From the NCBI RefSeq assembly GCF_027921765.1, contig NZ_BSEJ01000001.1, positions 124,001 to 188,000 on the forward strand: DNA of 64,000 bases, read 5' to 3'. This document shows positions 17,919 through 21,943 of this stretch, piece by piece. The DNA comes from Microbacterium barkeri. GTDB taxonomy: Bacteria > Actinomycetota > Actinomycetes > Actinomycetales > Microbacteriaceae. The notes under the pieces are model-generated. The model was not told the DNA's origin, did not search any database, and was given only the letters and a program-made list of their open reading frames with translations. Positions within the stretch are counted from its first letter, which is position 1. Each line of letters opens with the position of its first letter. The translations under genes and the position numbers were made by a program.

Positions 17919-18968
17919 TCAGCGCGCGTTCATGCGCGGGATGAGCACCTGCCGGTAGATGATCAGCACGCTCGCGGCCACCGGGATCGCGATGAGCGCG
18001 CCGAGGAGGCCCAGCAGCGCGCCGCCCGCGAGCGCCGCGATCACGACGACGCCGCCGGGGACGGAGACCGCCCGGCTCATGATGCGGGGTGACAGGACGT
18101 ACGCCTCGATCTGCATGTACACGAGGTAGTAGACGGCGGCGATGATCGCCGTCGTGGGGGAGCCGAGTCCGGGGATGAGACAGGTGAGAGCGATGATCGT
18201 CGAGCCCGAGATCGTGCCGACGAGCGGGATCATCGAGCCCAGGAACGCGACGACCGCGAGGACGGTCGGGTAGGGCGCGTCGATGATCGTGAGGAAGATC
18301 GCGCTGAGCACGCCGTTGATCGCGGCGAGCGTGATCTGGCCCATGACGTAGTAGCCGACCGAGTCGGTGATCTGCTCGGCGATGTTCGTGAAGCCCTCGC
18401 GCTTCGACGCGGGCACCATGCGGTAGAGGGCCGACTTGAGCGACGGGGTCGACGCCGTGAGGTAGATCGTCAGGATGAGCACGATGAACGCGCCGAAGAG
18501 ACCCTGGACGACATTGAGCGTGACGCCCACGACGCCTTCGCTGATCGTGTCGATGTTGCTCGTGAGCCAGTCGTTCACGAAGTCGAGGACGGTGTCGATC
18601 TCGAGCGTCGGGAAGGTCGCGAGCGACCACTCGCGCAGATCGTCGAGGAAGGTCCCGCGGTTGACGATGAGCGTGATCTGACCCACCAGCTGCCCGATCT
18701 GATCCACGAGCACCGGCAGGATGATCAGGACGATCCCGGTGAAGAGCCCGAGGACGGCGAGGATCGCGATCGTGACGGCCAGCCAGCGCGGCAGGCGGCG
18801 GCGCTCGAGCCACGAGACCACGGGGTCGAGGCCGAGCGAGATGAACAGCGCCGTCCCCACGTAGAGGATGATCGTCGAGAGCGACTGCAGGCCCTCGATG
18901 AGCAGCAGCCCCAGGCCGACGCCGAGCGTCGCGACGAGCGCGAGCCGGAACGGGTTGTGGATCTTCAT
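17919..18968 (-). CDS. AI-2E family transporter (PerM/TqsA-like permease)
   Basis: 349 residues. Two N-terminal hydrophobic segments (about 8-45) lead to LGLDPVVSWLERRRLPRWLAV, typical for the family. A central amphipathic region (about 85-150) follows, then five further spans. The GSMIPLVGTISGS and LSPRIMSRAVSVPGGVVVIA stretches are family signatures. Members export small molecules or Na+; despite the name, most do not transport AI-2. It is monocistronic and convergent with the hydrolase. Confidence 0.9.
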   Translation of the reverse strand: MKIHNPFRLALVATLGVGLGLLLIEGLQSLSTIILYVGTALFISLGLDPVVSWLERRRLPRWLAVTIAILAVLGLFTGIVLIILPVLVDQIGQLVGQITLIVNRGTFLDDLREWSLATFPTLEIDTVLDFVNDWLTSNIDTISEGVVGVTLNVVQGLFGAFIVLILTIYLTASTPSLKSALYRMVPASKREGFTNIAEQITDSVGYYVMGQITLAAINGVLSAIFLTIIDAPYPTVLAVVAFLGSMIPLVGTISGSTIIALTCLIPGLGSPTTAIIAAVYYLVYMQIEAYVLSPRIMSRAVSVPGGVVVIAALAGGALLGLLGALIAIPVAASVLIIYRQVLIPRMNAR

Positions 18969-19145: not shown

Positions 19146-20963
19146 GTGCGTTTCGTGTGGGCGGTTCTGGCCTTCGTGCTCGCGGCGGCGTCGTTCGGCG
19201 CCGGACTGGCGCAGCGCACCGTGTTCCTGGGCCCCGAGTCCGCCGAGCAGACCGTCTCGGTCGACGAGGAGCTGCCGTACCTCGTGATCGACGGCGACGC
19301 GTTCGCGCTCCGCCCCGGCGCGCAGACCCTCACGGTCCGGGGAGAGGGCCCCCTCTACACGGCCTACGGCCGCACCGCCGATCTCGAGGCGTGGCTCTCG
19401 GACCAGCGCTACAACCGCGTGAGCGCCGGCGACGGCGACGAGCTCGTGACGAGCGTCGTCGAGCCGGAGGTCGAGCCCACCGACGGCACGGAGGGGCGGA
19501 ACCCGCAGGGATCCGACCTCTGGATCGAGGAGCAGACCGCCGAGGACGAGATCGTCCGGACGGATCAGCTCCCCGAGGGGATGAGCATGCTCGTCGCGGT
19601 CGACGGCAGCCAGCCGGCGCCGTCGGACGTGTCGATCGTGTGGCCGCTCGACCAGAAGACCCCCTGGTTCGGGCCGCTCATGGTCCTCGGCGGCATCTTC
19701 CTGGTGACGGGCCTCGTGCTGTACATCCTGGCGCTGCGCCACACCCGACGCCGGCGCGGCCCCATCCGCAAGGGCCCGGCCCTCCCTCCTGCCGACGGAG
19801 ACGACGACGGCGCATCGAAGGGCGTCATCTCGACGTCGCGCCGCGGTCGGCGGGCGCTCGTCGCCGTGCCCGCACTCGGCCTCTCCGTCGGCCTGCTCGC
19901 AGGGTGCACGGCAGACTCGTGGCCCGAGCTCGGCGGCGCCCCGACGCCGACCCCGACCCCGACGGCGACCGCCACGCTCGCGCCCGATCAGCAGCCGTCC
20001 TCCCTCACCGAGGCCCAGGCCGACCGCATTGTCGGCGAGATCTCGGAGACCGTCGCCGCGGCCGACGAGAGCCTCGACATCGACCTCGCCTCGCACCGCC
20101 TCTCGGGCCTCGCGCTCGAGACGCGCGAGGTCAACTACCGGCTCCGCGCCGAGATCGAGGACTACCCGCAGGCGGTCTCGATCCCGACCGGCCCCGCGAG
20201 CATCGTCCTGCCGCAGGCCGTCGAGGGATGGCCGCGGACGGCGCTGCTCATCGTCGCCGACGAGGACGACACGACGGTCGCCCCCACGATCCTCTCGATG
20301 ACGCAGGACGACCCGTGGTCGCGCTACCGGGTCACCTACCTCGCCAACCTCGAGGCGGCGGCCGAGACGCCGCAGCTCGCGCCCGCGTGGCTGGGTGCCG
20401 CGCTCGTCGCCCCCGACTCGCCGTTCCTCGCGCTGGCGCCCGATCAGGTGGCGGCGGCCTACGCCGACATCATCGGCCGCGGCGAGGAGAGCGAGTACGC
20501 CGATCTCTTCGACATCTCGAACGACGGCTTCCTGACCGCCGTGGCCGAGAAGCGCCAGGCGACGATCGACAGCTTCAACGAGACCGGCGCCGAGACGGGC
20601 ACGATCGAGTACGCGCAGGGGGCGAACCCGACGCCTCCGATCGCGCTGGCCACGCTCGACAGCGGCGCGATCGTCGCGGTCGGCGTCGACGAGACCGAGA
20701 CCGTCCGCCCGACGAACGAGGACGCCGTCATCCGCTTCGAGGATGACGCGGCCCTCTCCCTCCTCACGGGGGAGACCGAGTCGCCCACGGGCGTCGAGAC
20801 GCGCTACACCGATCAGCTCTTCTTCTTCGTGCCCGCGCAGGGGTCGGACGAGCGGATCCGCCTGCTCGGCTACACGTCCGCCATCCAGTCGGCCGAGCTC
20901 CTGCCCGAGCCCGAGGACGCCGAGGCCTCGGAGGGCGACGCCGACGCCCCGGAAGGCGAATAG
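19146..20963 (+). CDS. large membrane protein with internal lipobox
   Basis: 605 residues, unknown function. A signal-anchor (about 1-22) is followed by an extracytoplasmic domain (about 25-172). A second span (about 177-198, PLMVLGGIFLVTGLVLYILAL) and a basic cytosolic linker (RRRRGPIRKGP and SRRGRR) come next. A third hydrophobic stretch (about 237-253) ends in LAGC254, a textbook lipobox. Then come a PTPTPTPT linker and a roughly 330-residue domain, ending in an acidic tail. The architecture looks like a membrane protein fused to a lipoprotein; no internal start codon precedes the lipobox closely. The upstream GTG is chosen because of GAGGAG. The TAG stop also forms part of the next -10 box. 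Confidence 0.7.
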   Translation: MRFVWAVLAFVLAAASFGAGLAQRTVFLGPESAEQTVSVDEELPYLVIDGDAFALRPGAQTLTVRGEGPLYTAYGRTADLEAWLSDQRYNRVSAGDGDELVTSVVEPEVEPTDGTEGRNPQGSDLWIEEQTAEDEIVRTDQLPEGMSMLVAVDGSQPAPSDVSIVWPLDQKTPWFGPLMVLGGIFLVTGLVLYILALRHTRRRRGPIRKGPALPPADGDDDGASKGVISTSRRGRRALVAVPALGLSVGLLAGCTADSWPELGGAPTPTPTPTATATLAPDQQPSSLTEAQADRIVGEISETVAAADESLDIDLASHRLSGLALETREVNYRLRAEIEDYPQAVSIPTGPASIVLPQAVEGWPRTALLIVADEDDTTVAPTILSMTQDDPWSRYRVTYLANLEAAAETPQLAPAWLGAALVAPDSPFLALAPDQVAAAYADIIGRGEESEYADLFDISNDGFLTAVAEKRQATIDSFNETGAETGTIEYAQGANPTPPIALATLDSGAIVAVGVDETETVRPTNEDAVIRFEDDAALSLLTGETESPTGVETRYTDQLFFFVPAQGSDERIRLLGYTSAIQSAELLPEPEDAEASEGDADAPEGE

Positions 20964-21001: not shown

Positions 21002-21943
21002 ATGAGTGACGTCGCCCCCGGCGCCGTGCTGCGCGGCGCTGTCGACCTGTCGACGCTGAAGAACCGCCCGGCCGCGCCCGCGTCGCCCCCGGCGGGCGGA
21101 GCGCCCGGCGCGCCGGCGCCGGCGCTCGTCTTCGATGTCACCGACGCGACCTTCGGCGAGGTCCTCGAGCTCTCCCAGCGCGTGCCGGTCGTCGTCGACC
21201 TGTGGGCCGAGTGGTGCGGCCCCTGCAAGCAGCTGAGCCCCGTTCTCGAGAAGGTCGTCGTCGAGCACGGCGGCCGGCTCGTCCTCGCGAAGGTCGACGT
21301 CGACGCGAACCCGCAGCTCTCGCAGGCGTTCCGCGCGCAGTCGATCCCGATGGTCGTCGCCCTGGTCGCCGGACAGCCCGTCCCGCTGTTCACCGGCGCC
21401 GTCCCGGAGGAGCAGGTGCGCCAGGTGTTCGCGCAGCTGCTGCAGCTCGCGGCGCAGAACGGGGTCACCGGGACGGTCCCCGTGCCGTCCGACGGCGATG
21501 CGCCGGCGGACGAGGCGGCCGCGCCCGCCCTGCCGCCGCTCCACCAGGAGGCGTTCGACGCGATCGAGGCGGGCGACTACACCCGCGCCGCCGACGCCTA
21601 CGAGCGCGCGCTCAAGGAGAACCCGCGCGACGCGGAGGCCTCGGCCGGCCTCGCGCAGGTGCGGCTGCTGCACCGGATCCAGGGCGTCGACCTCCACGCG
21701 GCGCGCGCAGCCGCCGCCGCGGCGCCGGAGGACGTCGATGCCCAGCTCCTCGTGGCGGACCTCGACGTCGCGGGCGGGCACGTCGACGACGCCTTCGACC
21801 GGCTGCTGGACCTCTTCGCAGCGCTCCCGTCCGATCGGCGCGCCCCCGTGCAGGAGCGCCTCGTGGAGCTCTTCGGCGTCATCGGAGCCACCGACGCGCG
21901 GGTCGTCCGCGCGCGCGGGCGCCTGAGCTCGCTGCTGTTCTGA
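21002..21943 (+). CDS. thioredoxin-like TPR protein (YbbN/CnoX type)
   Basis: 313 residues. After a Pro/Ala-rich N-terminal linker (about 20-40) comes a thioredoxin fold (about 42-150) with an intact active site, AEWCGPCKQLSP. C-terminal tetratricopeptide-like repeats follow (about 175-313). E. coli CnoX is a redox-linked holdase; here the CxxC is kept, so disulfide chemistry is possible. There is no signal peptide, so it is cytosolic. The next gene, a cysteine desulfurase, begins 13 nt later. Confidence 0.88.
   Translation: MSDVAPGAVLRGAVDLSTLKNRPAAPASPPAGGAPGAPAPALVFDVTDATFGEVLELSQRVPVVVDLWAEWCGPCKQLSPVLEKVVVEHGGRLVLAKVDVDANPQLSQAFRAQSIPMVVALVAGQPVPLFTGAVPEEQVRQVFAQLLQLAAQNGVTGTVPVPSDGDAPADEAAAPALPPLHQEAFDAIEAGDYTRAADAYERALKENPRDAEASAGLAQVRLLHRIQGVDLHAARAAAAAAPEDVDAQLLVADLDVAGGHVDDAFDRLLDLFAALPSDRRAPVQERLVELFGVIGATDARVVRARGRLSSLLF

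Follow-up and report, generated by a model that had tools for sequence, protein, structure and literature searches.

How does a single gene come to encode a complete lipoprotein signal in the middle of its chain, and what would such a signal do there? The question is raised by an open reading frame in a stretch of 64,000 nucleotides of Microbacterium barkeri (contig NZ_BSEJ01000001.1, positions 124,001 to 188,000; hereafter the window). The frame occupies positions 19146-20963 of the forward strand, starts with GTG, encodes 605 amino acids in a membrane half and a lipoprotein half, and is open throughout. The reading at which we arrive by comparison of sequences, and to which we assign a probability of about 0.87, is that the product is a membrane polyprotein, born by gene fusion, which would be cut at the internal signal by LspA in this organism and by signal peptidase I in some of its relatives, giving a membrane subunit and a lipoprotein.

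The original prediction described a full lipoprotein signal (LAGC254) located mid-chain, preceded by two membrane spans and a basic linker, and the sequence, the hydropathy profile and the AlphaFold2 models all agree with that description. In the model of the first 205 residues (86-row alignment, pLDDT 96.2), a membrane helix of residues 2-26 (19149-19223; this and all following positions within the gene are on the forward strand) leads into a beta-rich domain of residues 27-174 (19224-19667), which the topology would place outside, and a second membrane helix, residues 175-204 (19668-19757), closes this half. Mean hydropathy in 19-residue segments exceeds 1.2 over residues 1-29, 172-201 and 234-258. 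A fourth, weaker hydrophobic run, residues 496-517, lies in a part of the C half that is predicted to form strand. Between the second helix and the third hydrophobic run lies a basic linker, residues 205-236 (19758-19853), which is expected to be cytosolic and which differs widely in length and sequence among relatives.

The internal signal peptide covers residues 233-253 (19842-19904), with its hydrophobic core at residues 237-250, and is followed by the C half. Its sequence, RRGRRALVAVPALGLSVGLLAGC, combines the elements that make up a lipoprotein signal, namely a basic n-region, an uncharged core and a lipobox. The latter, LAGC, comprises residues 251-254 (19896-19907) within the longer ending LLAGC, and the cut is predicted to fall between G253 and C254. 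The basic n-region, the uncharged hydrophobic core and the cysteine-bearing lipobox are thus shared with the ordinary substrates of Lgt and LspA. In contrast to these, the signal is not at the N-terminus of the chain, since the cysteine is residue 254 and comes after two spans, and after cleavage the signal would stay on the membrane protein. The window's lipobox also fits the published pattern [LV][ASTVI][GAS]C (PMC8689077). The predicted mature lipoprotein, residues 254-605 (19905-20960), has 352 residues and a mass of 37.2 kDa computed from the sequence, as compared to about 27 kDa for the membrane product and about 64 kDa for the uncut chain. The AlphaFold2 model of the C half has a pLDDT of 93.3 and a pTM of 0.88, with a low-confidence stretch directly after the cysteine.

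Lipobox-like signals located beyond residue 100 are found 4 times, the window's frame included, among 311 rough gene calls covering 464 kb of this genome, a rate that gives the order of magnitude only, as the genes were called by a simple GC-frame rule. When the other three were inspected by eye, two turned out to have a methionine right ahead of the signal, as would be expected of lipoproteins with a wrongly called start, and the third resembles a membrane span of a transporter. Against this background the window's signal stands out as more than a chance occurrence. In this genome, the frames at L270 10969-13266 and L284 15672-17333, both on the reverse strand, have lipoboxes distant from the first start codon and are probably lipoproteins whose starts were called too early.

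Could the fused frame likewise be a mis-called gene boundary? The original prediction argued that it is not, and this holds. In 132 of the 134 genomes of the window's family (referred to below as f1) that were read in detail, the reading frame continues across the junction, which eliminates a boundary error as the explanation. The exceptions are G070, the N half of which was missed by the profile used, and G086 (L265/L292), where the frames of the two halves differ and a segment of the C half is repeated, so that this locus is apparently damaged or mis-assembled. The accompanying statement that no start codon stands just before the lipobox has to be amended. An in-frame GTG is present at codon 241 (19866-19868), 13 codons before the cysteine. 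What stands is the substance of the argument, because this GTG is too near Cys254 for the start of a normal signal peptide, and a chain begun there would lack a basic n-region. Upstream of the lipobox, the first in-frame ATG to be met is codon 179, inside the second span.

The split versions that the original prediction proposed to look for do exist. A profile search across the order matched 90 of 99 genomes, and in 12 families other than those with the fusion the two halves are encoded by separate, adjacent genes on the same strand and in different frames (34 of the 34 genomes read), the second gene carrying its own lipobox after a plausible start in every case. When the start of the second gene is taken as the last ATG before the lipobox, the two genes overlap by 4 bp in 22 of the 34 genomes; the count rises to 30 of 34 when the start nearest to such an overlap is chosen, a rule that favours the overlap. 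Fused frames total 226 genomes in three families (132 in f1, 59 in f6 and 35 in f7), and a single frame there corresponds to proteins that are encoded separately in the 34 split genomes. The three fused families form one side of a branch with a support of 52 in a quick gene tree. The fused gene arose, in one event or several, from two neighbouring genes that usually overlap, and a small frame change at the overlap may have been enough to join them. In a survey of the whole class, 17 of 79 genomes were matched, 4 of them in the order, and all the matches outside the order are weak (best E 4.4e-7). In some split relatives (L110, L122, L125 and L127) the lipoprotein signal contains an RR motif that appears Tat-like by eye, and the C half may accordingly be exported in a folded state in those families.

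Within f1 a homologue was found in 397 of 398 genomes, sampled evenly out of a larger group, and 78 of 78 genera contain one, the nearest named record being from Microbacterium oryzae (83% identity). The lipobox is present at the fused junction in 126 of 132 genomes (62 or 63 genera) and absent in 6 (5 genera); where a genus count is given here or below as two values, Microbacterium is possibly counted twice, by name and as g1. These calls were made with a broad pattern of our own, which 160 of the 161 fused lipobox proteins of f1 and f7 fit, while the strict published pattern (PMC8689077) is fitted by 126 of the 161. The net charge before the core is at least +2 in all 161. A disulfide role was also considered for Cys254 and is unlikely: it is the sole cysteine of the window's 605-residue protein, and 72 of the 161 lipobox proteins have no other cysteine, in a count that includes sequence ahead of the true start.

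It may be argued that the lipobox is a useless relic of a recent fusion, given that the junction has a clear counterpart in the separate lipoprotein gene of other families. A recent event is, however, difficult to reconcile with a fusion that extends over 67 or 68 genera of f1, and a useless one with the pattern of conservation. The linker has diverged freely, varying greatly in length and sequence across the 21 alignment rows, yet G253 and C254 are invariant in all 21, in line with the retention of the lipobox in 126 of the 132 genomes. We therefore regard this explanation as hardly credible.

In f7 a homologue is present in 60 of 60 genomes. Of the 37 that were read, 35 are fused, and each of these 35 has the internal lipobox. 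The remaining two differ in kind. In G566 (L218) the N half is in a different frame from the C half, which reflects a damaged gene or an assembly error, while G542 (L217) has two separate frames divided within the linker, with the lipobox on the second. The membrane half of G542 ends in a long low-complexity tail, and the core and lipobox of its second frame resemble those of the fused relatives; since in the tree it falls within the fused members, this arrangement looks like a secondary split. A paralogous N-C pair lies downstream of the first one in f7 loci (L098 7361-9173, L099, L219-L222, L114, L115, L214, L216 and L217). Counted only in the 14 genomes whose locus holds this pair whole, it forms one frame bearing an internal lipobox in 11 and is divided into two genes in the other 3 (G485, G498 and G575), indicating that halves arranged in this way were joined or separated on more than one occasion. 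In f6, matched in 70 of 80 genomes, all 59 genomes that were read are fused and none has a true lipobox, the single pattern match, in G640, being a false positive on inspection.

The close coupling of the genes in the split relatives lends some plausibility to a different account, in which translation starts again within the linker and yields the lipoprotein as a normal chain of its own, the fused frame being incidental. An in-frame ATG, GTG or TTG is indeed found 15-45 codons before the site in 86 of 126 lipobox genes of f1, in 18 of 35 of f7 and in 41 of 59 f6 genes. On the other hand, such a codon is missing in 40 of the 126 and in 17 of the 35, and a start codon preceded by a Shine-Dalgarno-like stretch, as judged by a simple home-made test, is limited to 5 of 126 and 3 of 35 genes, respectively. 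In the window's gene, the sole nearby start codon is the GTG 241 discussed above. Judged from these codons, internal starts cannot be the mechanism common to these genes and could add a product in some genomes, and we consider it quite improbable that they are the source of the lipoprotein.

In a number of genomes the lipobox has been lost. Here the hydrophobic core of the junction is kept and is followed by sites of the signal peptidase I type, for example QAYA, PAHA, PASA and AAQA. In f1, an A-x-A motif after the core is present in 6 of 6 proteins lacking the lipobox, as compared to 45 of 126 with it (Fisher p 0.0028). Adding 58 f6 proteins, with G640 kept out of both sides, gives 60 of 64 versus 40 of 161, in a comparison that used a slightly narrower range of positions than the first. 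The motif is frequent in alanine-rich sequence in general. In the proteins lacking the lipobox it peaks 4-7 residues past the core and increases to a lesser extent at -8 and -7, within the core; the lipobox proteins display a single spike at +7 (15 counts). In a tree of 69 f1 members, built from columns outside the junction, at least five changes of signal type, in either direction, are required, four of which are forced by starred branches.

According to the original prediction, homologues without the cysteine would speak against cleavage. Such homologues were found, in 6 of 132 f1 genomes and in 59 of 59 f6 genomes, but they do not have that consequence, as 60 of the 64 compared carry A-x-A. 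The appearance of this motif in place of the lost lipobox argues for cleavage at the junction and not against it. Every fused junction with a lipobox (161) and 60 of the 64 compared without one carry a signal that, by its sequence, would be cleavable. As far as such signals can be read, some lineages can do without lipidation itself, and the simplest account of the distribution would be that selection acts on cleavage at this place and not on the cysteine as such.

These data also bear on the possibility that the third hydrophobic segment is never cut and serves as an ordinary membrane anchor, with the cysteine of the lipobox forms maybe lipidated without cleavage. The topology permits such an anchor, the lipobox is absent from all 59 fused f6 genomes read and from the six f1 genomes, and 4 of the 64 proteins lacking it are without A-x-A as well. 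An uncut anchor, however, requires neither a lipobox nor A-x-A, and the former is present in 161 of the 167 fused f1 and f7 genomes, while the latter peaks at the distance appropriate for signal peptidase I where the lipobox has been lost. Moreover, lipidated substrates are normally cut by LspA. An anchor that stays uncut is for these reasons given only a slight chance, and cleavage of the polyprotein at the junction is the reading that we retain.

The predicted structures were compared with known folds. For the N half (19146-19760), Foldseek returned 8 matches with E <0.001, among them CDC50 of a human flippase, JMJD7 and a dioxygenase, and the best VIA-align matches were to CDC50 subunits, with Z values of 8.0 (rmsd 10.0, 126 aligned) and 7.9 (rmsd 1.9, 58 aligned). 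The helix, beta sandwich and second helix of this half resemble the CDC50 flippase subunits in layout. The C half has no Foldseek match with E <0.001, and its best VIA-align score is with the intermembrane-space domain of PARC6 (Z 7.6, rmsd 2.7, 113 aligned), followed by VirB8-like and NTF2-like folds with Z of about 4-6. Common arrangements reach Z scores of this size, so no function is drawn from the folds. Pfam yielded nothing for the window's protein at E <0.2 and only scattered matches to one to three relatives, and PHROGs yielded no match.

The C half does have a distant relative among curated families. Residues 286-583 (20001-20894) align to positions 31-317 of the 320 of NF053531, the model of the SCO2278 family of lipoproteins, with E 3.7e-14. 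The score of 52.4 bits is below the curated cut-off of 210, which makes the C half a distant relative of the family and not a member of it by the NCBI rule. Among 89 relatives of the C half, 76 match the same model with an E of at most 0.01. The SCO2278 family protein is encoded by a separate gene, whereas in the window the related stretch belongs to the second part of a fused chain. A figure legend in PMC5733086 calls SCO2278 hypothetical.

The next gene downstream (21002-21943, forward strand) encodes a thioredoxin-TPR protein (PF00085 and PF14561), and the corresponding cluster lies beside the pair in 33 of the 40 loci compared, across families, which suggests a functional link between the two. 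The divergent upstream neighbour (17919-18968, reverse strand) encodes an AI-2E family transporter (PF01594), whose cluster is present in 21 of the 40 loci compared.

Among the closest known systems is FbcH of Bradyrhizobium, the cytochrome b/c1 polyprotein, in which a membrane protein comes first and an exported protein second, the two being parted by signal peptidase at an internal signal. The site in FbcH is of the signal peptidase I type, and the parts are respiratory cytochromes. The window's junction differs in having a lipobox, which would direct it to LspA, and both types of site occur in the gene family of the window. A literature search, which covered mostly titles and the beginnings of abstracts, with subscription journals largely outside its range, returned neither the phrase "internal lipobox" nor, among the matches listed, a precedent for a signal peptidase II cut in a fusion.

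From the above we infer translocation, lipidation and cleavage of the window's protein to proceed as follows. The first half would insert with two spans, leaving the N-terminus inside, the beta domain outside and the basic linker inside. The internal signal peptide would then re-enter the membrane from the inside and bring Cys254 to the outer face, where Lgt would lipidate it, and LspA would subsequently cut before it. The window's genome contains one match above the cut-off for each of these two enzymes. The former signal peptide would remain on the membrane subunit as a third, C-terminal membrane helix, and the C half would be released as a separate, lipid-anchored lipoprotein. After the fusion, selection would have kept a cuttable signal at the junction, of the LspA type in most f1 lineages and in f7 and of the signal peptidase I type in the others. 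In f6 and in the six f1 genomes that have switched, the C half would be left with no lipid to anchor it, and the two halves may be held together by contact.

Taken at the level of the family, it is probable, although we are somewhat less confident of it than of the overall reading, that LspA acts as the maturation protease of a family-wide membrane polyprotein, that its signal becomes a permanent third helix, and that LspA and signal peptidase I have been exchanged for each other several times with the separation of the halves preserved. If LspA does cut here, it would have a polytopic membrane protein as a substrate, the two subunits would be produced in equal amounts, and a signal peptide would be turned into a lasting membrane helix. 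As lipoprotein signals are usually sought at N-termini, a conserved internal lipobox is easily overlooked and the gene filed as that of one membrane protein. The repeated swaps between lipobox and signal peptidase I site in one gene family provide a natural series on the substrate needs of both peptidases, and the family shows a route by which overlapping genes could fuse and yet keep two separate products.
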